Shown here: piece after piece, positions 2,567-19,421 of the stretch
How positions within the stretch are numbered: the stretch's first letter is position 1
Layout: every line of letters begins with the position of its first letter
DNA from: a bacterium
Lineage (GTDB): Bacteria > Patescibacteriota > Saccharimonadia > Saccharimonadales > UBA4665
DNA: 64,000 nt
Reading direction: 5' to 3'
NCBI GenBank assembly: GCA_021811625.1
Contig: JAJZNU010000004.1
Location: 40,398-104,397 of the forward strand
The notes under the pieces: generated by a model
What the model was told of the DNA's origin: nothing
The model's input: the letters and a program-made list of their open reading frames with translations, nothing else
The model's database searches: none
Made by a program: the position numbers and the translations under genes

Positions 2567-5500
2567 CTAGTTATTACTAAAGGTGAAGTTTAGGTTGCCC
2601 ACGTAGGCATTGGCGTTGTTGCTGGCTATGACGTCAATCTTGAAAACGATACTATCACCAGGCACGAACCCGCAGGTCGAAGGATCGGCGGCACCCGTGG
2701 CTACCCCGGTCTGCCAGCTGGAGACTGAACCGGTCGAGACGGTAACCGTCGGACCGCACTGCGTTAATCCGGTCGAGGGATCTTCTCTGTAGACTTCATA
2801 CTGGACGGTAGAATTGCTGCTGTCCGTTCGGCCCATCAAAGATGTTTGGCCGGAAGAAAAGATCTTGTATGTTTGAGGTAACTGGTAAGTTACATAGATA
2901 CTATATGTCTGAGCGGTTGCTTGCGGGGAGGTCCATTTATAAAAGTTATATGTCTCATTGGTCCCGCAAATGTCGGGTTGACCCGACGTGCCGTCGTTTA
3001 TGTGCAAAGCATCTGAGCAGATATCTGAATTAATCGTGCCTATGCCGGTACCATGTAGCACGGCATTGGTGTATTCGGGGGAAATGGTGACAACAGTGTC
3101 AGGCGAAGAACCACATGATCCCCAGCCGCTCGCTTCGTAACATTGGATTTTACCCAAGGTGGTATCGTAGTACATCGACCCAAGCAGCGATTCGTTATTA
3201 CTGGCAATTGGCGCTGATGCGGCGCTATCCAGAGTGAATAGGGTAGTGGGGCCGCCGTGAACGCCGCCACCGATCTGGATATCCGGTGTAGTGCTGGTAG
3301 CTAGAGTCATTGACAGTGTATCGACATAGAACGTTCGGGCTGTGGAGTCGGTTGGAGGTTGAGTGAAATAGAGATACGGTGCTGTGACGGCGGTACCGTC
3401 GGTATTTATGTAGCAAGTAATTTCAGTGAACACCGAGGTTGTGGAGGAAATGGCTTGCGTGTTGTAATCGACGCAGCCGATGGTCTCGGAGCCGTTGTTC
3501 GGTGTGTACGATACAGTAAAATCATTAAATCCCGCTGTAGTGCTCGCCGCATAAACGGTTACAAGGTAGAGAGAGTTCGCCAAGGGGTTAACCGACAGCA
3601 GATTACTAATTCCTTGACTAGCGCCACTGGTGACTATTTGAGCGCTGTCACTTGCGGCTTGGCCGACGCTTGTACTGCGGGTGACGGTTGCTCCTCCAAC
3701 TGCCGGCCAGTTCGTAGTGAAGTTGGTGGCATCGTCGACGCCTCCATCGGTAGCATAATTGTAATCCGCAGAGATTGTGACGCTTAAGTTGTCGATGTAG
3801 AAGGTTCGCGCCGTGGCATCGGTTTGACCTATCAATATAGCATTGCTAGAGGTAATACCAGATGACGGGGCGGCGAATGAACAGTTAATTTTTCTCCATT
3901 GGCTAGTAATTGGCACTTGGGTGGTCGGGCAGGTGACCGACTGCGTCGTGCCATCAACCGAGTAGTAAATATACATACTCGTGAAGGTGCCGCTGGATAA
4001 CCTTGCCGCGAACGAAACGTTATAGTGCTGGTTGGCGGTGAGAGCGCTGACTAGAGTGTTGGCCACGCCATCACCGGCGGTGGCGGTGGTGGTGACCTGT
4101 ACCGAACCCTGCCCGGTAGCTATGTAATTGCCGACAGTTGAATAGCGGCTGACAGTGGCGTTGCCAACGCTACTCCATGTGTTGGACGGGAAGGTGCTGG
4201 AACTGCTTCCTTCGACTTCGGCTCCGGCGTCAGAGGCATATTCCGTGACGTTACTGCTTACAGAAAACAACGTCGCCGCTGAATTTGTTTGAATACTAAC
4301 CAGCGGGCCGTTGACTGGATTGACGGAACTATCCCGGATGGTCAAGCCGTTGGTATTAGAGGTGTGGCTGACGATTAGCTCGGCACCGCCGGCGCTCTGC
4401 AGGGTATTGTCATAAGCAGCCTGGAGGTCGGTTGAGCTGGAGGCCCCGGCAGCGCCCCATGCGCTCCCATTCCAGACCATTGTTGCCGAGCTATCCTGTC
4501 GCATCGCCACTTCGTTGCCAGTGCCTCCGGTGTTAACGGACAGAGTAAAGTCCTGCGACCCTGGAGCTGCCGTCACGTAAAATACCCGGCCGGGCAATGA
4601 TAGCGTCGGGGCGGGCAGGTAGGCTGTCTGACCAGAGGTGCTAAAGCCTACAATAACCGCCGATGAACCGTCGACAGTCGTCTGGGCGACGGTACAGCTG
4701 TTAGCTACCAGCTGTCCGCTAGTGTAACAATTCGGATCGTCAGCTACGGTTGAGAAAGTTGGAGTGCTTAAGATCACCAATCCGGCGACGCCGGTGCCCA
4801 CTCCAGCCCCGCCCGATATAGTTACATTTCCGCCGTTCCCGTTAGTGCCGCCTCCAGCTCCGCCGTTCACTACTACGTTACCGCCACTTAAAGCCGTGCT
4901 CCCGCTACCAGCTGCGCCAGCGGATATTGTCAGCGAGTTACCGCTCGCTCCTGCAGCGGCAGTTTCCATGGATATATTATGGCTAGCATTGTTCCCGAAG
5001 CTGACATCGCCGCTACCGGTTAAAGCAAAGGCGTCGCTACCGTTTGATTGTAAGTTAACCAGATCTCCGGTACCGGTCTTGTTTATATAAATAGTGTTGC
5101 CATCGGCGGAGTCGGTTTGCAAACCTTGATCAAGTTGAACCATTTGGACACTGGATAGCCCGTCCAGCAAGGCTGAATTAAAAGAGTAGGGGCTGGCCGT
5201 CAGTCGTTCCATAGGCAACATTTCTCCATCGGGGTTGCAAGCCGAAAATGGTGTACAAGTGGTATTTGTTCCGGCTACGTTCATCGACAACCAAAGCGTC
5301 CCCTGATCCCAGTTAATATTAGATCCGAAGGGCGTTATCGATCCTAGCTGGACAGACAAAAAACCGTTTTTAACCTCAACCCCTTGAGAGTTATTATTCA
5401 AGTAGTCCTCGGTCCACAGCAGGGTACCGGCTGGCGATCCGGTGCTGTCCCCGGTGCTTTGCCCGTCACCATCCTGGTAGATCCTAAATTCTATATTGTA

Positions 5501-5686
5501 GTATCCATCCGGTACTGTTGCTCCCTGAGAGTTGAGTAAGCGTCCTTGAAAGTTTATCTCCTGATTTATGCCAGGCGCGGCGTAAGCCGACGCCGGCTTA
5601 AGTAGATAGCAAAAAACTACAGCTACACCCAGCAGTAAAGGATATATCAACAACTGACGGTTGATGCGTGAAATTAGTAACCCCAT
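2567..5686 (-). CDS. Large secreted surface protein with two tandem jelly-roll/CBM-like modules
   Basis: 1039 aa ORF; N-terminal signal/TM segment; two internal modules each ending in ARTFYIDNLSVTIS / ARTFYVDTLSMTL. Confidence 0.8.
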   Translation of the reverse strand: MGLLISRINRQLLIYPLLLGVAVVFCYLLKPASAYAAPGINQEINFQGRLLNSQGATVPDGYYNIEFRIYQDGDGQSTGDSTGSPAGTLLWTEDYLNNNSQGVEVKNGFLSVQLGSITPFGSNINWDQGTLWLSMNVAGTNTTCTPFSACNPDGEMLPMERLTASPYSFNSALLDGLSSVQMVQLDQGLQTDSADGNTIYINKTGTGDLVNLQSNGSDAFALTGSGDVSFGNNASHNISMETAAAGASGNSLTISAGAAGSGSTALSGGNVVVNGGAGGGTNGNGGNVTISGGAGVGTGVAGLVILSTPTFSTVADDPNCYTSGQLVANSCTVAQTTVDGSSAVIVGFSTSGQTAYLPAPTLSLPGRVFYVTAAPGSQDFTLSVNTGGTGNEVAMRQDSSATMVWNGSAWGAAGASSSTDLQAAYDNTLQSAGGAELIVSHTSNTNGLTIRDSSVNPVNGPLVSIQTNSAATLFSVSSNVTEYASDAGAEVEGSSSSTFPSNTWSSVGNATVSRYSTVGNYIATGQGSVQVTTTATAGDGVANTLVSALTANQHYNVSFAARLSSGTFTSMYIYYSVDGTTQSVTCPTTQVPITSQWRKINCSFAAPSSGITSSNAILIGQTDATARTFYIDNLSVTISADYNYATDGGVDDATNFTTNWPAVGGATVTRSTSVGQAASDSAQIVTSGASQGISNLLSVNPLANSLYLVTVYAASTTAGFNDFTVSYTPNNGSETIGCVDYNTQAISSTTSVFTEITCYINTDGTAVTAPYLYFTQPPTDSTARTFYVDTLSMTLATSTTPDIQIGGGVHGGPTTLFTLDSAASAPIASNNESLLGSMYYDTTLGKIQCYEASGWGSCGSSPDTVVTISPEYTNAVLHGTGIGTINSDICSDALHINDGTSGQPDICGTNETYNFYKWTSPQATAQTYSIYVTYQLPQTYKIFSSGQTSLMGRTDSSNSTVQYEVYREDPSTGLTQCGPTVTVSTGSVSSWQTGVATGAADPSTCGFVPGDSIVFKIDVIASNNANAYVGNLNFTFSNN

Positions 5687-5803: not shown

Positions 5804-6766
5804 CTACCGGGCCAGATGAAGGGTTAGTGGATGATTCCCTATAATACGTTTTTCGCGTCGTTCACCTAACCAGAAACTAATAACCGTCGTGGCGGCGGTG
5901 GTGTATAGCGGCCACAGGACGAGCAGCTCGTTTTTCGAAGTGTTCGATAACGAGCTGGAGACTGCGGCAGAAGTTTGCCCGTTTACGACGGCAACCACGG
6001 TTAAATAAGCGTCGAGACCTTCTGAATCGCTAGCCTGTAGGATAATTTGGTACGTTCCCGGTTTTTGGTAGACGTGATCGATATTAAAGGTAGTGTCGTT
6101 ACTACGCGGTAAGACGGTGTTCGTGCTGTCTCCCCAGTCGGTGTTGATAGCATAAGGCGGAGTACCGCCGCTAATGCTAACCGGTACGTTTAACTGTTCT
6201 CCGGGGAAGGTTCCGCGATATATGCCATCGGTGCTGAGTAACAACTGAGCTCCGCCCAGGCTTAAGGTTGACAGCGGGGCCGCCTGAGCCGGGAGAACGT
6301 TGTAAGAAACATTAACCGAATTGGAATCTGGGCCGGTTTGGTTAAGCGCATCGTAGACTTTGGCGATTAGGGTGTTCTGGCCGATTAAGAGGTCGATATC
6401 AAAAGCAAAGCTCCCACTATTCGTGCAAGGACTGGATCCGGCGAAGATATTATCTTTATACACCTCTACGATTGTTTGCGGAGGACAAGTCCCGGAAACT
6501 TGAACTGGCGAGGTAGTAAATTGCTGGCCGGACGCAGGGGATACAATAACCGCTGCTTTAGCAGGTGCTGGTTGAGGCATGATACCGTTCAAGGCTACCG
6601 AGCCTGACTGAGGCGGTGGACTGAGCGCCTCAACAGAGGTGATAGTCAAAGCCAATCCCACTATCAAGAGCAGTACCAATAATGGGATGTACGAGGTATA
6701 TTCGTGCGATCTATAGCGACCAGTATGTCTATGATGGCTAAGCTTCAGGAGGGCGTGTACGGACAT
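5804..6766 (-). CDS. Membrane-anchored surface protein with Ig-like and PKD-like domains
   Basis: 320 aa; N-terminal TM, SPASGQQFTTSPVQVSGTCPPQTIVEVYKD (Ig-like), WGDSTNTVLP...HVYQKPGTYQIILQASDSEG (PKD-like), C-terminal TM. Confidence 0.75.
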   Translation of the reverse strand: MSVHALLKLSHHRHTGRYRSHEYTSYIPLLVLLLIVGLALTITSVEALSPPPQSGSVALNGIMPQPAPAKAAVIVSPASGQQFTTSPVQVSGTCPPQTIVEVYKDNIFAGSSPCTNSGSFAFDIDLLIGQNTLIAKVYDALNQTGPDSNSVNVSYNVLPAQAAPLSTLSLGGAQLLLSTDGIYRGTFPGEQLNVPVSISGGTPPYAINTDWGDSTNTVLPRSNDTTFNIDHVYQKPGTYQIILQASDSEGLDAYLTVVAVVNGQTSAAVSSSLSNTSKNELLVLWPLYTTAATTVISFWLGERREKRIIGNHPLTLHLAR

Positions 6767-6830: not shown

Positions 6831-7892
6831 CTATTTCTTGTTGCGTCTGAAACCACTCGCTCGTTTTCGTTGTTTGGGCGGGGATGTGCGATGGACGGCT
6901 TGTCCGCCTACCTGAGCCTTGGAAATAATTCTACGTTTGTAGTTATGCAGCAGGGCGCGCAGTACAAAGAAAGCGGCGATTAGAGCAACAACAACGGTTA
7001 AAATAAGCTTCCACGGTATGACCCAAAACGTAAGGCTTGCCGTAAGTACTTTTTGTGTTCCCGTGCCGTAGCTTAGATATAAGTCGGCATGATACCGTCC
7101 GAACAATCGTTTATTGCCTATGACTGTTTTGTCTATTGTGGCCGTAAATTTCCGGATACTATCCGGTAGGACGTTATGCGGCGGTATATTAATGTTGACA
7201 CCGGCGGTGGTTCTGCCAAACATGTCGGTTATCTTAATGTTCCCGATAGGCTCTTCCTGGATATTGCCGCTATTTTTCAGACGTACCACAAAACCCAGCG
7301 GTGCTGACTCGAAGAAACTCCCGGCTTTAGCGTTTTTGCCGCCGTCATTAACCGAAAACTCTTGCACGGAGAGCTGGTCGTTAATTTTACCGTTGACCGT
7401 CAGTAGCACTAGAGCTCCAACACTGGCCGAAAGAGAAACACCGGTGCCATTCATCTGTGGCGGTGTGCCGGTAAAACGTATAACACCGTAGTGTCCTCCC
7501 GGTGATGCATTTGTCGGAACGGAAATGCTAATATTCAATGTCTCTATTTTCTGGGGGGCTAACTGAAAACTCGGCAGCGGACTTATCCAGTTCTTCATTG
7601 AGAATGGGTCATTATAATTGTTGCCGGTGAGTATCTTGGGTGTCCCGTCTTCGCCATTGGCCACGAAGTCGTTAATCTGATTAGTAACAATCAAGTCAGT
7701 TTTTGAAATATCACGCAGATCAATTGTTGTATTTAAAGTTTGCCCCGGATTGGCCCTAAGAGGTATGAGGGGCGGAGCTATTTCCAGGGCTTGGCCGCCG
7801 CCGCCACTGGCTGCTAAGGCCACCGGACCGCCTATACAGGCATAGAGCATCACTACACCTAACCCGGAGATCAATAGTGCGGCTTTTTTCAT
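6831..7892 (-). CDS. DUF916-like (WxL-interacting-protein-like) membrane-anchored protein
   Basis: 353 aa; signal peptide, LEIAPPLIPLRANPGQTLNTTIDLRD, SPGGHYGVIRF, C-terminal TM plus basic tail; DUF916 style recognised by eye. Confidence 0.6.
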   Translation of the reverse strand: MKKAALLISGLGVVMLYACIGGPVALAASGGGGQALEIAPPLIPLRANPGQTLNTTIDLRDISKTDLIVTNQINDFVANGEDGTPKILTGNNYNDPFSMKNWISPLPSFQLAPQKIETLNISISVPTNASPGGHYGVIRFTGTPPQMNGTGVSLSASVGALVLLTVNGKINDQLSVQEFSVNDGGKNAKAGSFFESAPLGFVVRLKNSGNIQEEPIGNIKITDMFGRTTAGVNINIPPHNVLPDSIRKFTATIDKTVIGNKRLFGRYHADLYLSYGTGTQKVLTASLTFWVIPWKLILTVVVALIAAFFVLRALLHNYKRRIISKAQVGGQAVHRTSPPKQRKRASGFRRNKK

Positions 7893-7896
7893 AAGT

Positions 7897-9042
7897 CTAG
7901 AACGTAGGTGTGCAGATGTAAGTTAGAGTTGTAGTATAAGTTCCTGCTGCCTGGTGTCCGGCAACATTGACAATGTACGTTGAAGTATATATCTGGGGGT
8001 CGGTTGCCGAACTGGTGCTGTCGGCTATGTCATTAAGGCCTGCCGGGTTAAAAGTGTATAGCGCCGTAGTAGAGGCGCCCCCGGTGTTATAGCCAGAGAG
8101 AGCCTCGCCCTTATCGTACGACCCGGCTGATGGTGTAATAGCAGCGCTTGCCGGAGAAGGGGCGGGTGTGGCGGAGTTAGCTGCCGAATCCAGAGCAAGG
8201 TTCATGCCAAACTGTCCAGTGCCCGGTGTACTGAGTCCCGTTGTGGTCATGGCCGGGATGGTATTGCTTCCGGATGTCAGAGTCGGTCCGCTGACGGTTA
8301 TAGCGTACCCTGAACCCGCATTCGTACTTGCAGCCATCTGAGAGGTCGCATAGGTTGTGCTAGTCGTCGAGAAGTCCTGGTTAAAACTAATGTTGCCAGT
8401 CGTAGCCGTGGAACAATCTGGTACTCCGCCGGTCTCACCGACGCTCTGACCGGTACAAAAAATCAACGATTCGGGCATGGTACCGGTAAGTACTATCGCG
8501 GTAGCTGTCGAGGCTGCCACAGTGCCATTGTCTATAACCGTTGTATAAGCGTCAGAATAAGTCACGATTCGGGCATAGAAAGTCTGGTTAGTAGTTGTCG
8601 GGTTTTGAACATTTCCGAACACAATAGTCTGTGACCCGCTAGGCGCAGTGCTATTTGATGAGTTGGCAATATCCAGCACATTGACACTCGGAGGGCTTGC
8701 ATTAATTGTCCAGCCGGAAGCACTGCCTAGGCCGGTCGGTTGACTGGCTAATGTTGCAGCGCTGTTACTGAAGCCGACAGGAGGGGTACATGTACCGTCA
8801 GCGGTGGTGCAGACTTGGATGCCGACCGACTTGACTACTGTGACAGAGGGAACCGTAAAGGTAAACGTATAAGTAGTAGTGGCATTTGACGTATTGGGAC
8901 TCGAAGAACTAAGTGTCAACGTTCGATTGGTTATATCCTCGATGGCATATGTCTCCATTGCCGGTAAAGCAACTACCCCGATACTCGCTAGAATAAGCAA
9001 TATCGGCATTAACAAGACAGCCCTTCGTCCTCTAACGTGCAT
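7897..9042 (-). CDS. Secreted WxL-like domain protein, paralog A
   Basis: 381 aa; signal peptide; GYAITVSGPTLTSGSNTIPA and C-terminal VAGHQAAGTYTTTLTYICTPTF; paralogous to 9122-10345. Confidence 0.65.
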   Translation of the reverse strand: MHVRGRRAVLLMPILLILASIGVVALPAMETYAIEDITNRTLTLSSSSPNTSNATTTYTFTFTVPSVTVVKSVGIQVCTTADGTCTPPVGFSNSAATLASQPTGLGSASGWTINASPPSVNVLDIANSSNSTAPSGSQTIVFGNVQNPTTTNQTFYARIVTYSDAYTTVIDNGTVAASTATAIVLTGTMPESLIFCTGQSVGETGGVPDCSTATTGNISFNQDFSTTSTTYATSQMAASTNAGSGYAITVSGPTLTSGSNTIPAMTTTGLSTPGTGQFGMNLALDSAANSATPAPSPASAAITPSAGSYDKGEALSGYNTGGASTTALYTFNPAGLNDIADSTSSATDPQIYTSTYIVNVAGHQAAGTYTTTLTYICTPTF

Positions 9043-9121
9043 GCCGAAATATTAGCATAACAACTAATGCTCAGTCAAAAAGATTTTTTGTAGCCAGAAC
9101 AAAAATAAATGCTGGGTAATC

Positions 9122-10345
9122 TTAAAACGTAGCGGTACAAATGTACGTCAGGGTAGTAGTGTAAGAACCCGCTGGCTGGTGACCCGGAACATTCACTAGG
9201 TAGGTCGAGGTAAATACCTGAGGATCGCTGGCAGCGCCGGTACTATCGGCAACAGTGTCGCCGGATTTATATTCGTACTTGGCGGTAGTACCGCTACCTC
9301 CGGTGTTATAAGGAGCTACGGCCTCACCGTTATAGTATGAGTTACCGGTCGGAGTGGTAACGTTAGCGCTGGCGGGGACTGGAGCTGGGGTTGCGGCATT
9401 GGCGTCGGTGTCTTGTACGACGTTCATACCGAACTGACTTGTGCCTGGCTTGCTGAAATCTCCGCCAGTTACAGAAATGGCGGTAACGGTGTTGGCGCCA
9501 GAAGTTAGGGTCGGACCACTCACGGTTATGGCGTAACCAGCTCCGGCGTTCGTGCTGGCTGCCATTTGGGACGTTGCCCAAGAGGTGGTAGTGGGCGAGA
9601 ATAACTGATTGAAGCTAATATTCCCAGCGGTGGCGGTAGAACAATCCGGCACATTATTGGTTTCGCTGATGCTCTGCCCAGTGCAAAACAGTAGCGATTC
9701 GGGCATAGTCCCAGTTAACTGGATCGGGTTGGCGGTACTTGCCGCTACTGTCCCGGTGTCGGTTGGTGTACCGGTGCCATTAGTAGTGCTATAGGCAGAA
9801 ATTCGAACATAAAATGTCTGATTTGCCGTTGTGGGGTTCACAATACCGCTGAGTTCCTTGGTCAAAACTGTCGAAGTTGTAATCTGGACTGCCGATGCCG
9901 TAGCTATGGTTACGGTATTAATTTCACCGCTGTTCGGGTCGGACGCATCTTCATTCGCTGATGTGGTTAAACTCGTAAAACCAGTGATACCACCGCTATC
10001 CTGCGTTAAGGTAGCGCCGGCTACACTCAGGCCGGCTGGGGCATAGCAACCGATACCCCCGGTAACCGGCTCACCAGTCGTGCAGTACTGAAAAGTTATA
10101 GAACCAATATTTTCCGTAGTATCGTTATAGTCCACAGTAAAGTTAAACAAATGCTTAACGGTAGCTCCTGGCATGGAACCGCCGTCAGTAAGTGCCGAAG
10201 TTCCGTCCTCGAGCGTCAAACTCCGACTTGTTATTTGCTGAGCAAAAGCTCGACCCGGCAGGAACACCTGCGCAACGAGGCCCAACACTAACATCACTGC
10301 ACCAGCACCACTAAATATTTTTACACTCAAGCTTCTTATTTTCAT
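9122..10345 (-). CDS. Secreted WxL-like domain protein, paralog B
   Basis: 407 aa; signal peptide; GYAITVSGPTLTSGANTVTA and C-terminal VPGHQPAGSYTTTLTYICTATF. Confidence 0.65.
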   Translation of the reverse strand: MKIRSLSVKIFSGAGAVMLVLGLVAQVFLPGRAFAQQITSRSLTLEDGTSALTDGGSMPGATVKHLFNFTVDYNDTTENIGSITFQYCTTGEPVTGGIGCYAPAGLSVAGATLTQDSGGITGFTSLTTSANEDASDPNSGEINTVTIATASAVQITTSTVLTKELSGIVNPTTANQTFYVRISAYSTTNGTGTPTDTGTVAASTANPIQLTGTMPESLLFCTGQSISETNNVPDCSTATAGNISFNQLFSPTTTSWATSQMAASTNAGAGYAITVSGPTLTSGANTVTAISVTGGDFSKPGTSQFGMNVVQDTDANAATPAPVPASANVTTPTGNSYYNGEAVAPYNTGGSGTTAKYEYKSGDTVADSTGAASDPQVFTSTYLVNVPGHQPAGSYTTTLTYICTATF

Positions 10346-10446
10346 TTTTTTGTTTTAACTTTTGTTTTACTTATCTATGGCCAAGGTTAGCACAAGTAGA
10401 TTAGCTCGTCAACGTATAGTTATACACAGGCTAAGCTGGCACTAGC

Positions 10447-11208
10447 TTAGTACGTACCGGTGCAGACCAGTGTTTGATTGGTTGTATAAGATCCGGCCAC
10501 CGTCAAGCTGGTAACGTTCACTATGAAACTGATCGTGTAAATTATCTCGCCGGAGCTTTTGGGCGATTCGGCAATAGTATCGCCGTTGGAGTAGTAGAAA
10601 TGATTAGCGGAATCGTAGTTTGCTGTCGGTCCGGCAGTCGCCGCTCCAAACTGGCCGTAATTTGGGTCAGATCCTAGGTTACACCCCGACCCACAAAAAT
10701 CCGTGTTCTCGACCAAGTTGATTCCAAACTGTTCAGTGCCCGGCGAGGAAGTAGTGGGTCCGCCACTTCCGTTATTCATGGCCGGGATAGAATGACCCTT
10801 ATATGTTGGGGTTCCTCCGAGAATCTGGACAACATAGCCGTAACTGGTATAATCTATGACCGAAAACTGGATTGTTGCCGTAGAGGGCGCTGTGCTGCTA
10901 AAGGTACCAAAATCCGCAGAGCTACTCATAATAGAAAGCGCCAGTGAGGGGTCCTTTGTAGTTTGCGAACCTCCTTCAAACTGGAAACTGTTAGAATTTG
11001 AATTACCAATAGCCGAATCGCCGACAGATAAAACGGTCTGGTAGTTAGCAGAACTGGAAGGTATCAAGCCGCCGCCTCCGAGGTCGGTTTCTTGAAATTC
11101 ATAGTGAGGTGATTTTAGGGTATTGGCGTGGGCAAGACCGGTTATCGGGCTGCTGCTCAATACAACGAACGACAAAACCCCGATCACCCGAATAAACCTC
11201 TTTCGCAT
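10447..11208 (-). CDS. Secreted WxL-like domain protein, divergent paralog C
   Basis: 253 aa; signal peptide; GYVVQILGGTPTYKGHSIPA, GTEQFGINLVENTD, C-terminal VTSLTVAGSYTTNQTLVCTGTY. Confidence 0.6.
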   Translation of the reverse strand: MRKRFIRVIGVLSFVVLSSSPITGLAHANTLKSPHYEFQETDLGGGGLIPSSSANYQTVLSVGDSAIGNSNSNSFQFEGGSQTTKDPSLALSIMSSSADFGTFSSTAPSTATIQFSVIDYTSYGYVVQILGGTPTYKGHSIPAMNNGSGGPTTSSPGTEQFGINLVENTDFCGSGCNLGSDPNYGQFGAATAGPTANYDSANHFYYSNGDTIAESPKSSGEIIYTISFIVNVTSLTVAGSYTTNQTLVCTGTY

Positions 11209-11337: not shown

Positions 11338-12378
11338 GTGGCAAACACACAATCTCCCGAATCGCCAAACGATCAAAGCACGGAGCTTCCGTCTCCAGAG
11401 GTACTAAAACCTAAGGATAATGAAGACACGCCGTCATCCGATACTGGCACCGTTCCTCCCGGTAAGGACACCTCTAAGGGGCCAAAACTCCGACGCCGGG
11501 GAACTTATCGTCCCAGCCATAAAGCAACTTTTATCGGTCTCGCTGTTGTGGCGGCCATTCTGGCTGTAAACGCCGTTGTCATTACTTTTGTGTTAAAAAA
11601 CCACAGTTCTAATAACAATCCCCTGAGTAAGGATCAGGTAACCATCAGTAGCAGTGCCTTGGATAAGTTGGGCGTAAACAGCTCTGCCGTCGGTGATTCG
11701 GGTATTGAATTAAGCATTGGACCGGACACTAAATTCGACGGCTCAGTTCAGGTTGCCGGTGACGTAAACATTAGCGGGCAGCTTGCTTTAAATAGTAAAT
11801 TTACTGCCAGTGATGCCAGCTTGACTCAGTTGGAAGCCGGCAATACCTCCCTCTCTCAGTTAGATGTTAATGGTAACGGCACTATAACCGACCTTAACCT
11901 TCGCAATAATCTTGTTGTCACCGGCACGACATGGTTAAACGGGACAACAACGGTCGGCCAGCTTTTAACCGTTAACAGCAACGAAAATGTCGCCGGCAAT
12001 TTAGCCGTGGGCGGTACTTTATCGGTGGGGTCCTTTCAAACAACCAGTTTGACTGTTAGTGGACATGTTATAACTGCCGGTAATGCGCCATCGGTCAGCG
12101 CCGGATCGTGCATCGGGTCCAATGGCACGGTATCAATTAGCGGTAATGATACTACCGGTACGGTAGCAATCAACACCGGTAGCGGGGCATGCGCTGGCGT
12201 GCTGGCCAATGTAGTGTTTCGAAATCCTTTTACCGGTATACCTAACGTCGTCATAACGCCTGTCGGGGTAGGTGGTTTATTCTTTGTTAACCGGAGCACC
12301 ACCGGATTCAGCATTGGTGACAGCTCAGCACCTGTAGCCGGTATTGGTTACGCTTTTGACTACATCGCCGAACAGTAA
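11338..12378 (+). CDS. TM-anchored fibre-like surface protein with beta-solenoid-like repeats
   Basis: GTG start; disordered cytoplasmic N-term, one TM (ATFIGLAVVAAILAVNAVVITFVL), degenerate repeats (VAGDVNISGQLALN, NLVVTGTTWLNGTTTVGQLLTV, NLAVGGTLSVG), compact C-terminal domain. Confidence 0.7.
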   Translation: MANTQSPESPNDQSTELPSPEVLKPKDNEDTPSSDTGTVPPGKDTSKGPKLRRRGTYRPSHKATFIGLAVVAAILAVNAVVITFVLKNHSSNNNPLSKDQVTISSSALDKLGVNSSAVGDSGIELSIGPDTKFDGSVQVAGDVNISGQLALNSKFTASDASLTQLEAGNTSLSQLDVNGNGTITDLNLRNNLVVTGTTWLNGTTTVGQLLTVNSNENVAGNLAVGGTLSVGSFQTTSLTVSGHVITAGNAPSVSAGSCIGSNGTVSISGNDTTGTVAINTGSGACAGVLANVVFRNPFTGIPNVVITPVGVGGLFFVNRSTTGFSIGDSSAPVAGIGYAFDYIAEQ

Positions 12379-12388
12379 GTACATTGGC

Positions 12389-14919
<2,531 letters not shown>

Positions 14920-14933
<14 letters not shown>

Positions 14934-16437
14934 TGGTTTTGTCCTTATCACCATCCGGTGTTTCGCCTGATGGGTTTTGAGTACCGGCGGGTTTTTCCGT
15001 TGGGGTATCGGCAGGAGAGGGCTTTGGCTTGTCGCTGTGTTTTTTAAGTAGCTGCTCCTCAAGGTGGTCGAAATCCTTATCGTCCTTTAGAGCTCCGATT
15101 TTCTTTATAGATTCTTTAAGCCCGTTGATATCTATTGAAGTTGTGCCGCCGCCTAACAAAACCGTCTCCAGTAGTACTTCTTGTTGGATCAAACTGTGGC
15201 GCTCTTCGGGCGGCTGTTGCAAAGCTTGGTACAGCTGTTTACCAAGAGCTAAATCGGTAGAAGATTCTTTGGAGAGGCTAGAGCCGAAATGTGAAAATTC
15301 TTCGGCCTGATGGTATTTAGCCAAAGCTTGAAAAAGGTTACCGGTTAAATGTTTTTGACGAACATTTTGGGCTTGGCCGCCAACCCGGGACACCGACAAG
15401 CCAACATTGACCGCCGGTCGAATGCCTTGCCGAAAGAGCCCCAGATCGAAAATAATCTGTCCGTCGGTAATCGACATAATACTTGTCGACAGATAAGCCG
15501 TAATATCGTCGTTGGGAGTCACGATAACCGGTAATGCAGTCAACGTCTTACCGTTGTCTTTAAGTTTACCGGCCCTCTCTAAAAGACTAGAGTGAGCATA
15601 GAACATGTCGCCGGGATATGAATCACGACCCGGGTCCACTTCCTGCAGGAGAGAAAGCTGCCTATATGCTTCGGCATGTGAGCTTAAATCATCGTAAATT
15701 ATGACCGTATCCTGGCCAGCGTACCAGAGGTTTTCGGCCATTGAGCAAGCCGCATAGGGTGCTAGATAGGATTGAGTCAGGGACTCGAATATATCCGCCA
15801 GGACTACTATGGTGTGATCCATGGCTCCGGAATCTCTTAGGCCGGAAAGGAGATGCTCGATGTCGACTTTGCGTTTGCCGATCAAAACATAGATAACCAC
15901 TCGTCCGGTCCCAGCCTGGTTGGCGCTCAGTTGACTTAAAAAAGTACTTTTACCTGATTTACTATCGCCTAAGATTGCGATTCGCTGGCCGAGTACGATC
16001 GGGAAAAACATATCAACCGCTGCAACTCCGCTGGCAAGCTGCTCATTCAAAGGGCTTCTCGCCATTATACCGGGTGCGGCATTAAAGATCCCCGAAGTTT
16101 GGGTGGAATGTATGGCTCCTTTACCGTCAAGCGGCTTGCCTATGGGTGAAACCACTCGGCCGATGAGACCTTTGCCGACCGGCACGCTGAGCACATCGTT
16201 TTCGACGACGGCGAGTGTACCTGGCTCGACGTGTTCAGAGTCAATGTTGAAAAGAATAACCCTATCACCGTAAGCTTCTCGGACAAGACCTCTCTGGCCG
16301 TCTTCAAAAAGCACTTCGGCGCCCAACCGGACACCTTCCAAACCCTTAACTTCGACTATAAAGCTGTTGGTTGCTACAACTTCGCCCGTCAGGTTATCGG
16401 CTTCGACCAGTTTTTGAAAATGTTGATCATCAAACAC
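14920..16437 (-). CDS. atpA: F1-type ATPase alpha subunit
   Basis: 505 aa; P-loop variant GDSKSGKS, VLIGKRKVDIEHLL, IIYDDLSSHAEAYRQLSLL, FRQGIRPAVNVGLSVSRVGG. Confidence 0.9.
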
Positions 16438-16918
16438 GGCGCAAAACCTCTGGAAATTTATTGCGAGACTCTAGAATTTGGCGACGGAACGACCAATCGT
16501 AGACGTGGCTGCCGTTTCTGATTACAATTCCTCCCAGCAAGCTGGAGTTGAATTGGAAGTTCACGAGAGTATTGGGGGCGATATTTTTACGGCACCATTC
16601 GACAAGAGTTCTTTTGAGACTTGCGGGGGGAGGTCCAGCCAAGGTAATCGCCAGTTGCGAAGCATTATTATTAAAAGATTGTAGGGCGTCTATCAGCTCG
16701 TCCAGTGTTTGCCGGCTGAGCGGTTTTTGAGCAGCCCAATCATGAATGAGCTCCATTACCTCGGGCGTTACATCGGGACCACTGTCGGATCGGTGTTTAA
16801 CTTTCAACCGTTTTTTGATATCGACATGTGAAAACCACCGGGCGTAGTCTTTTACGCCTAGCAGAAGGGTTTGTACATCCTGCTGGGTAATGACGCTATT
16901 TGGTAGCTGGAGTTTCAT
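16430..16918 (-). CDS. atpH: ATPase delta subunit-like
   Basis: 162 aa; C-terminal NSSLLGGIVIRNGSHVYDWSFRRQI matches delta signature; operon position. Confidence 0.75.
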   Translation of the reverse strand: MKLQLPNSVITQQDVQTLLLGVKDYARWFSHVDIKKRLKVKHRSDSGPDVTPEVMELIHDWAAQKPLSRQTLDELIDALQSFNNNASQLAITLAGPPPASLKRTLVEWCRKNIAPNTLVNFQFNSSLLGGIVIRNGSHVYDWSFRRQILESRNKFPEVLRRV

Positions 16919-17522
16919 CGTTGGCCACCTCCTGTTTAAAGTCGGCTTTATGCTCCTCTAATACGGACGTCAAGTAGGGGACCTGGGCTCCGAGATCAAC
17001 GTTATGCTGTAGCGTCTCCAGAAGAAATGATGCAACGGCATCCGACAATTTTGTATCAATTTGCTGGATTAGGTGTTGTTTTTCTGCAGCCATCTCCTCT
17101 TTAAGCTTGGCTTGTAGATCAGTCTGGTGGCCAGTAATTTCAGTCTCGGCATTCTTGGAGACGGTTTCGGTTTGTTGGTGCAATTTTTCAATCTCGACGC
17201 GGTAACGCTCCATCTCTTTGTCGACTATTTCCGTACCCAGTTTTTCCAGTTGTTTGGTTAGCCGTTCTTCGGTGTCGCCGAGATCCTTTTGCATACGTAC
17301 AGCGGATCGCTCCAAAGCAGTCTCAAAATTGGCCTGAGCAGTTTCCAGCAGGCGCTGTCTTACTGCTGGCGGTAGATAAGTATCATCGGCCGGATTGTGC
17401 TTGTTTACGGACTCATGTTTATCGGGACGGTAGTGAGCATAGGCATGACGCAGAGCAGTTGCGGCAATAACCCCTATAAAAAAGACATCAACGTATAGGA
17501 ATATTTGTACGAAAACCGACAT
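16896..17522 (-). CDS. atpF: ATPase b subunit-like (TM plus long coiled coil)
   Basis: 208 aa; short N-terminal TM then Glu/Lys/Gln-rich helix; upstream of delta. Confidence 0.65.
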   Translation of the reverse strand: MSVFVQIFLYVDVFFIGVIAATALRHAYAHYRPDKHESVNKHNPADDTYLPPAVRQRLLETAQANFETALERSAVRMQKDLGDTEERLTKQLEKLGTEIVDKEMERYRVEIEKLHQQTETVSKNAETEITGHQTDLQAKLKEEMAAEKQHLIQQIDTKLSDAVASFLLETLQHNVDLGAQVPYLTSVLEEHKADFKQEVANDETPATK

Positions 17523-17523
17523 A

Positions 17524-18339
17524 TCAAAGCTTCGTTATTATCATATAAATAGACAAGGCGGCAACAACAAGGATACCGAGGACCAGTGCAGACATTTGGA
17601 TCACTTGACGGTATATGGCCGATTGCGACAGCGGGTTACGCCCAACAGATATAATACTGCTATGAATCATTGAGTACACAATACTAGCCACTATTATAAC
17701 AGTTATGATAAAAATGCCCATGCTTATTAGAATCGGTATGGTATTTACTTGTTTGCCGGCAAGGGCGTCGGATATATTCTGAATCGCGGAGGGGATCAGG
17801 GTTTTATTCGGTAGTTTGTAGAAATACGACACGCTGACTTGCACCGGTATATCACCGATCAACACGGAATGCTTTTGGCCGCTACTGTCAGTGAATGTTT
17901 CCGTACTGCTGTTACTGTTATCCAGTCCGGACTGCGCGATGCCAACTACCTTAATGTCCGAGGTTGCTTTCATACCAACCCCACTTATCGGTGAGGCGGT
18001 AATCTCATCACCATCCGCAATGCTTCCGTTAATGTTGGATACCAGGACCTGGACTACACCGGTCGTGGCGACCTGAACTTGACTGGTCTGACCGGTTGAC
18101 AACGATAACAAAGAACTATCGCTGTTAATGACAACTCCCAAAATACCGCCCACATTTGTACTGGTGGCGGCATCTACTTCGTCAGTAGTTCCACTTTTCA
18201 AACTCACTATCGCTCCTACCGGCAGCTGGTCGGTGGTGGTATAACCCTGAGAAATTGTGGTAATGGCGAAGGCCGCTGCGCTAGGCAGCAGAATGAGCGA
18301 TACCGCAAATGTCGACAAAAATAATCTACGACAATTCAT
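17524..18339 (-). CDS. Signal peptide + extracytoplasmic beta domain + C-terminal subunit-c-like TM hairpin (GRNP loop)
   Basis: 271 aa; signal peptide MNCRRLFLSTFAVSLILLPSAAAFA; ectodomain; two C-terminal TM helices joined by SVGRNPLSQSAIYRQ; first gene of the F1 operon. Confidence 0.7.
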   Translation of the reverse strand: MNCRRLFLSTFAVSLILLPSAAAFAITTISQGYTTTDQLPVGAIVSLKSGTTDEVDAATSTNVGGILGVVINSDSSLLSLSTGQTSQVQVATTGVVQVLVSNINGSIADGDEITASPISGVGMKATSDIKVVGIAQSGLDNSNSSTETFTDSSGQKHSVLIGDIPVQVSVSYFYKLPNKTLIPSAIQNISDALAGKQVNTIPILISMGIFIITVIIVASIVYSMIHSSIISVGRNPLSQSAIYRQVIQMSALVLGILVVAALSIYMIITKL

Positions 18340-18677: not shown

Positions 18678-19421
18678 TCATAAACCATGATCCAAACTAC
18701 TGTAAAAGTTTAAATTGCATGCGTGATCAACGTCCAGTGCCGTGGTGTATTGGGTTATCCACGGCATACTAGCGCCGAATCCTGTGTTCCGGCAGGCATC
18801 CAGCGCTGGAGCTAGGCTGTAACCACCGGTGGCTTCCCATGTCGGCAGGTTTATACGCCAGTCGCCAACGATAGCGGTCCATTGGGTAGGGTAAGAGTAC
18901 AGGCCTACGATGGCGAGGAAGACATTCTGATGGATGGCATCGATAGCACCCTCCAGCGAGGCGCGGTTAGCAAATGTATTAGTTGTCCAGCTGTTATCGG
19001 CCTCAACGTCCAACCACCATAGTGGACTGTGTATGCCTTGGGAGTCGGCATAACGTATGCTATAGGCAGTGGCGGTGTATCCGTAGTTATAAGCCCGACA
19101 GAGTTTGTCGCTGGCCCTACAGTGCCTAGGCCCATTGTCACGCCGCTTACCATAGACAATACCTGGATATCCGGTATTGGCATACAGGGCAACGTGTCCG
19201 AACCAACTTGCTTCCTTATCGAGACACGGATTCATCCGGAAGTCCAGGCCGCCGTTTACGCCAACTATTGCCCAAATTGAGTTCGGGGGAGGCCGCACTC
19301 CACAATTTGGCCATGAAACGTCATATATTGTTTGGTCATTAGTTGGAGGGGTCATAAAAACACTTAATGCTGCCGCGGAGCTAAGCAAAAGTACGACTAT
19401 TAGCGCAACCAGACGACCCAT
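18678..19421 (-). CDS. GH25-like / DUF1906-like secreted hydrolase
   Basis: 247 aa; signal/TM; YDVSWPNC, WWLDVEADNSW, LPTWEATGGY, WITQYT. Confidence 0.6.
   Translation of the reverse strand: MGRLVALIVVLLLSSAAALSVFMTPPTNDQTIYDVSWPNCGVRPPPNSIWAIVGVNGGLDFRMNPCLDKEASWFGHVALYANTGYPGIVYGKRRDNGPRHCRASDKLCRAYNYGYTATAYSIRYADSQGIHSPLWWLDVEADNSWTTNTFANRASLEGAIDAIHQNVFLAIVGLYSYPTQWTAIVGDWRINLPTWEATGGYSLAPALDACRNTGFGASMPWITQYTTALDVDHACNLNFYSSLDHGL

Follow-up and report, generated by a model that had tools for sequence, protein, structure and literature searches.

A Pam pilus locus with its own divergent F1-ATPase, a probable rotary motor for a surface appendage in Saccharimonadia

The window analysed here is a 64,000-nucleotide stretch from the genome of an ultrasmall bacterium of the Saccharimonadales (GCA_021811625.1), placed on contig 12 of an assembly of 639 kb in 13 contigs that is 74% complete. 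It carries a Pam-type pilus locus and, next to it, a complete, divergent F1-ATPase operon at 12389-18339 that runs in the same direction as the pilin genes and lacks subunit a. The pilus locus is probably coupled to this non-respiratory F1 rotary ATPase, which would serve it as a private, ATP-hydrolysing motor for a surface appendage. The genetic basis consists of the F1 subunits, a subunit c-like fusion protein without the ion-binding carboxylate, the lack of subunit a, and a linkage of Pam and F1 genes that extends across the class. An original prediction for positions 6831-11208 had taken the pilin genes for a WxL-like surface system, and the neighbouring F1 motor was no part of it. The term pilus is used for the Pam locus as the NCBIfam family name, the locus being known here from its genes alone.

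The motor operon comprises the following genes, with protein families assigned by Pfam and NCBIfam profiles, each with its own cut-off.

12389-12652, minus strand: F1 epsilon-like subunit, beta-sandwich only, without the C-terminal helical domain (PF02823, 55.6 bits)
12649-14076, minus strand: F1 beta-like catalytic subunit with Walker A (TIGR01039, 447.8 bits; cut-off 462.85)
14073-14933, minus strand: F1 gamma-like subunit (PF00231, 101.6 bits)
14920-16437, minus strand: F1 alpha-like subunit (NF009884, 406.2 bits; PF00006, 217.5 bits)
16430-16918, minus strand: delta/OSCP-like stator subunit (PF00213, 26.1 bits; cut-off 22.3)
16896-17522, minus strand: b-like stator subunit with one N-terminal transmembrane (TM) helix and a long coiled coil (operon position and sequence; sub-threshold NF011043, E 0.054)
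17524-18339, minus strand: rotor-like fusion of 271 amino acids (aa) with a signal peptide, an extracellular beta domain and a C-terminal c-like hairpin with a GRNP loop (AlphaFold, Foldseek, hhalign)

The start of the gamma-like gene was set at an internal ATG, judged from a 286-aa paralog; the listed open reading frame (ORF) extends to 15062. Three alpha/beta pairs are present in the genome. One belongs to a canonical operon with subunits a and c on another contig (C8); the other two are divergent, and each has a Pam cluster next to it. The second of these Pam clusters, on contig C11, repeats the gene order of the F1/Pam arrangement in the window. Subunit a occurs in this genome on C8 only, and it is absent from all 13 genomes that carry the extra F1 alone. 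Among the motor beta subunits Walker A is kept in 53 of 53 and GERxREG in 49 of 53, with the DELSEED-type motif lost, and the motor epsilon has a median length of 95 aa, versus 141-142 aa for canonical subunits, having lost its C-terminal domain. Because the Walker A and catalytic motifs are kept, the carboxylate of the rotor is absent and the C-terminal domain of epsilon is lost, the extra F1 is predicted to hydrolyse ATP and not to transport ions. In a tree of beta subunits the motor and canonical proteins are split by a long stem; inner nodes near the root are poorly supported, and therefore no origin is claimed for the motor.

The rotor fusion occupies the position of atpE (subunit c) in the operon. 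In its AlphaFold model (pLDDT 89.3) two helices, at residues 200-232 and 238-270, flank the GRNP motif at 233-236, and the beta domain adopts a fold like that of phage capsid-decoration proteins (Foldseek E 5.2e-5). The hairpin aligns with canonical subunit c around GRNP (hhalign P 1.8e-5). The ion-binding carboxylate is found in none of 34 homologs of the fusion, versus 30 of 30 canonical c subunits. Of 28 tested genomes that have the extra F1, 27 contain the fusion; of seven with canonical F1 only, none does. A separate scan for the rotor gene in 85,488 species genomes gave 38 full-length loci whose titles read Saccharibacteria/Patescibacteria or unassigned bacterium, the rotor-protein records as a whole bearing the titles Saccharibacteria, Saccharimonadia, Patescibacteria, once Parcubacteria, or unassigned bacterium; both modules, Pam and F1, were found in 33 of the 38 loci. 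A dead c-like rotor carrying a secreted domain, and its linkage to Pam, are undescribed as far as the literature searched shows. The extracellular domain of the fusion (residues ~22-151) also occurs inside large proteins of several genomes (ORFs of 541-3350 aa). Two rotor-fusion genes have no F1 gene in the fetched 20 kb (L263:10001-10819 and L257:10001-10792); the former has a bactofilin-like neighbour, and CP025011.1, the source of the latter, is a complete genome. A secreted protein of 247 aa without a significant Pfam match is encoded at 18678-19421 (minus strand), upstream of the motor operon; judged by eye alone, it resembles a glycoside-hydrolase-like surface protein.

The Pam cluster and its associated surface genes are as follows.

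2567-5686, minus strand: large secreted protein of 1039 aa with a CBM_4_9 domain (PF02018, 30.7 bits; cut-off 25.9)
5804-6766, minus strand: PamR, pilus-system RbmA-like, with Ig-like/PKD-like domains and a C-terminal TM helix (NF058578, 331.5 bits; cut-off 300)
6831-7892, minus strand: DUF916/WxLIP_PGBD-like protein with a signal peptide, an Ig-like region, a C-terminal TM helix and a basic tail (PF06030, 14.3 bits)
7897-9042, minus strand: Pam pilin 1, with a signal peptide, an N-terminal beta domain and a Pam pilin C domain (NF058581, 111.8 bits; cut-off 55)
9122-10345, minus strand: Pam pilin 2 (NF058581, 113.4 bits)
10447-11208, minus strand: PamT-like short pilin (NF058579, 230.4 bits, just under the cut-off of 240; NF058581, 135.4 bits)
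11338-12378, plus strand: divergent surface protein with a cytoplasmic Pro-rich N-terminus, a TM helix, a weak bactofilin-like beta-helix and a conserved FDYI domain at the C-terminus (PF04519, 15 bits, sub-cut-off)

That 7897-9042, 9122-10345 and 10447-11208 are three tandem secreted paralogs with a common motif pair, as originally described, is borne out by the ORFs and by both motif blocks, with GYAITVSGPTLTSGSNTIPA, GYAITVSGPTLTSGANTVTA and GYVVQILGGTPTYKGHSIPA present in the respective ORFs, all on the minus strand, and AGTYTTTLTYICTPTF, AGSYTTTLTYICTATF and AGSYTTNQTLVCTGTY at their C-terminal ends. The three proteins match NF058581 (CPR_Pam_pilin_C) at E values of 3e-32, 1e-32 and 2e-39, respectively, and a 40-member pilin alignment keeps G245, G252, G274, G367, Y369 and Y375 invariant (numbering of protein 7897-9042, also for the cysteines), so the likeness of their motifs reflects homology and not chance. 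By these profile matches they are Pam pilin-family proteins, already named by NCBI. The model of 7897-9042 has two beta domains (AlphaFold pLDDT 84). The pilin-C domain is encoded at seven places in this genome, spread over two clusters, and the second cluster on C11 includes a copy of PamT above its cut-off (NF058579, 268.5 bits); the genome's second PamR also passes (NF058578, 351.9 bits). The pilins and PamR of both clusters thus belong to the Pam families that NCBIfam names for the Candidate Phyla Radiation (CPR), namely NF058578 for PamR, NF058579 for PamT and NF058581, whereas the F1 genes and the rotor fusion match none of the Pam models. NF058580, considered as a further Pam model, was rejected as a lipase family. 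Searches covering part of the literature found no description of the Pam system. The CBM_4_9 protein is the last gene of the cluster, and homologs lie downstream of PamR in many relatives (e.g. L067, L078, L085).

The survey of linkage between the two modules took in 40 PamT loci of class members other than this genome, with 20 kb fetched per locus. F1 alpha and beta lie within this distance of PamT in 34 of the 40, and the remaining six genomes (G108, G094, G005, G019, G032, G115) carry a second F1 elsewhere. The order, with few exceptions, is rotor fusion, b, delta, alpha, gamma, beta, epsilon, a bactofilin-like gene on the opposite strand, PamT, pilins, DUF916 and PamR, so that the arrangement of Pam, DUF916 and F1 genes recurs among relatives; the counterpart of 11338-12378 is the bactofilin-like gene conserved between F1 and PamT. 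Near full-length PamT, counted by hand, is present in 47 of 148 genomes of the class, and all 47 of these have the extra F1, as do 30 of the 101 genomes without PamT (p 3e-18, a value that is indicative only, the species being related). Two genomes (G142, G145) keep the extra F1 and lack the canonical synthase; some genomes have thus retained the extra F1 after loss of the ATP synthase. F-type alpha and beta, canonical or motor, are missing from G018, G030, G049, G054 and further members of genera g16 and g24. Since every PamT genome has the motor and the motor also occurs without Pam, Pam seems to need the motor, which can serve other partners.

Motors without Pam give some indication of what such partners might be. 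In G110 and G071 the Pam-less motor lies between the housekeeping genes that flank the cluster on C11 (nifS-like upstream, mnmA downstream). At the same site in G133 a Pam-less motor is accompanied by a 134-aa PamR-like remnant (27 bits; L173:1228-1632, minus strand), which suggests a trace of loss of the Pam module. In G072 and G077 the motor adjoins a protein of 3090 aa with a C-terminal stretch of 110 residues that matches the end of the bactofilin-like protein. This C-terminal domain, ending in GYAFDYIAEQ, recurs at the ends of giant proteins of 857-3090 aa, which are found near Pam-less motors at L165:9932-19204, L166:544-9813 and L171:15559-19041. Because the domain recurs near Pam-less motors, it may be a common surface partner of the motor.

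How the motor might act on the pilus can be outlined as a proposal. The c-like hairpins would form a ring that is bound to gamma and epsilon through the GRNP loop and is turned by ATP hydrolysis. As there is no path for ions, torque would pass to the extracellular domains of the ring and on to the surface appendage. Alpha3beta3 would be braced by the b/delta stalk against proteins anchored in the membrane, for which the bactofilin-like protein, PamR and the DUF916 protein are candidates. The likely use would be to move, extend or remodel surface fibres while the cell attaches to, or moves on, a host cell. The specific form of this idea, in which a dead c-like ring crosses the membrane, rotates its extracellular domains and turns or remodels the pilus as a device powered by ATP rather than an ion gradient, one part of which rotates on the cell's outside, is put forward tentatively, at somewhat less than even confidence.

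Several observations weigh against a pilus motor of this kind. The pilus, the complex and the rotation are all predicted, the first of them from family names. Homology of the fusion to subunit c covers about 25 columns around GRNP, together with topology and operon position, with HMMER scores of at most 14.9 bits, and no F-type c subunit is among the Foldseek matches listed for the fusion model. The motor is also found without Pam in about 30 genomes and therefore has other clients, and linkage is no proof of contact. Those genomes support a reading in which the clients of the motor are giant adhesins or the bactofilin-like protein, and Pam only lies next to it or is carried along as a passenger. 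So do the giants of 857-3090 aa that carry the bactofilin-like C-terminal domain near four Pam-less motors, as well as G110 and G071, where the motor has no Pam beside it and is flanked by the shared housekeeping genes. The reverse, Pam without the motor, is never seen (47 of 47 PamT genomes have it), and the Pam module stands directly beside epsilon at most loci; the passenger role is therefore judged unlikely, if a serious contender. The extra F1 could instead be a secretion or assembly ATPase like FliI/SctN that exports or polymerises pilins without an external rotor. Type III secretion uses F1-like ATPases, which gives this idea a precedent, and the constant presence of the extra F1 with Pam is compatible with it. 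It appears improbable, given that separate alpha and beta with gamma, epsilon, delta-like and b-like subunits make up a full rotary set, that the rotor fusion keeps the loop facing gamma and epsilon, and that the pilins have ordinary N-terminal signal peptides, so that Sec suffices for their export. Although intact alpha and beta motifs would fit a further ATP synthase, or an ion pump, subunit a is missing from the motor-only genomes, no rotor homolog has the carboxylate, epsilon is truncated and C8 separately carries a canonical F1Fo operon, and this identity is very improbable indeed.

With regard to the pilins, the original prediction was a CPR version of the WxL/WxLIP complex, in which the pilin C domains would be diverged WxL domains (Trp replaced by Tyr, Leu by Ile or Cys) held at the wall by the DUF916 protein. 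The DUF916 half of this proposal held. The gene at 6831-7892 lies directly downstream of the pilin genes on the same strand, its product has a signal peptide and a C-terminal TM helix as read from the sequence, which is a trait of WxLIP proteins, and PF06030 (WxLIP_PGBD) is matched by 29 of 32 orthologs (best E 2.4e-11). The genome's second DUF916-like copy reaches 28.8 bits, above the cut-off of 27.3; the window copy stays below it at 14.3. The accompanying expectation of DUF3324 (HBD) failed, as this domain does not figure in the family listings of the single proteins or of the 32 orthologs. A match of 6831-7892 to TAL effectors in the Protein Data Bank (PDB) was discarded, as it involves only the SGGGGQALE-type residues 24-46.

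The WxL half found no support. PF13731 (WxL) matches nothing in the genome and none of 40 pilins, and the two W-x-L motifs were not found in the pilins, which have Y-x-I and Y-x-C or L-x-C in their place. In a profile comparison (hhalign) of the pilin C domain with nine real WxL domains from plasmid records, just 16 C-terminal columns were aligned (probability 10.8%, E 0.0029). This value beats 99 of 100 column-permuted controls, the best of which reached 0.09, and a reversed template gave 0.3; the exception, a permuted control with E 1e-20, was set aside as a 6-column numerical artefact of hhalign. PamT against the WxL profile gave E 0.58. Patterns shared by eye, G-[WY]-x-[LI]-x-V-[ST] and AGxYxxTLT[WY], favour the WxL/WxLIP complex along with the DUF916 family membership, and the visible likeness of GWTLSVTG to GYAITVSG and of AEGTYQSTLTWTL to AAGTYTTTLTYIC may stem from distant common ancestry or from strand motifs that have converged, which does not make the pilins WxL proteins. 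A fold search with the AlphaFold pilin model returned generic tandem Ig-like proteins and nothing specific to WxL (TM-scores 0.16-0.2 for long misaligned matches). The PDB entry 9i25, a WxLIP bound to WxL, appeared at rank 22 (9i25_C) and fitted the model no more closely than the remaining tandem Ig-like proteins. The WxL/WxLIP complex is accordingly regarded as quite unlikely, and the paralogs are better placed as NF058581 Pam pilins. Stabilisation by a disulfide at the motif Cys, also suggested, is unsupported because several of the 40 aligned pilins lack that residue (in TYIC); C78, C85, C196 and C210 are the cysteines that the pilins conserve. Compared with the WxL/WxLIP clusters of Firmicutes (PMC10599100), the window locus shares a DUF916-like domain, the signal peptide, the C-terminal TM helix and adjoining secreted beta-sandwich paralogs, and differs in having no WxL domain, W-x-L motifs or DUF3324.

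The coupling of an extra F1 to surface structures has parallels in other bacteria. In Omnitrophota a non-respiratory F-type ATPase lies beside type IVa pili, and its beta subunit clusters with one from Ca. Saccharimonadia (Seymour et al. 2023, PMC10066038). The two cases are alike in linking an extra F1 to a surface-appendage locus; the partner is a type IVa pilus there and the Pam pilus here, and a fusion of a c-like rotor to a secreted domain is unreported in the available part of that paper. The gliding motor of Mycoplasma mobile is an F1-derived precedent (PMC11864180), and the M. mycoides Type 3 F1-like X0 works with MIB-MIP, a Walker-A mutant of beta having lost protection (PMC12994834). 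These Type 2 G1-ATPase and Type 3 systems likewise use an extra F1 for surface work, be it gliding or MIB-MIP (PMC11864180, PMC3369863, PMC12994834). The membrane proteins of X0 lack known homologs, whereas b, delta and c-like subunits are recognisable here. Scores against the NCBIfam models MSC_0618/0619 and MMOB1660/1670 stayed below their cut-offs (390.9 against 570, 258 against 520, 298.7 against 600 and 341.6 against 850). The window motor would further differ from the Mycoplasma motors in the dead c-ring that, as proposed, crosses the membrane.

Attachment of Patescibacteria to their hosts, and movement on them, have so far been studied mainly through type IV pili. A conserved pilus locus of another type with a private F1 offers a testable candidate machine, present in about one third of the sampled genomes of the class. 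If rotation is indeed passed outward through an ion-free c-ring, the system would count as a rotary device that ATP drives at the cell surface, and it would represent a further route, beside those of Mycoplasma and Omnitrophota, from the parts of ATP synthase to motors for host contact.

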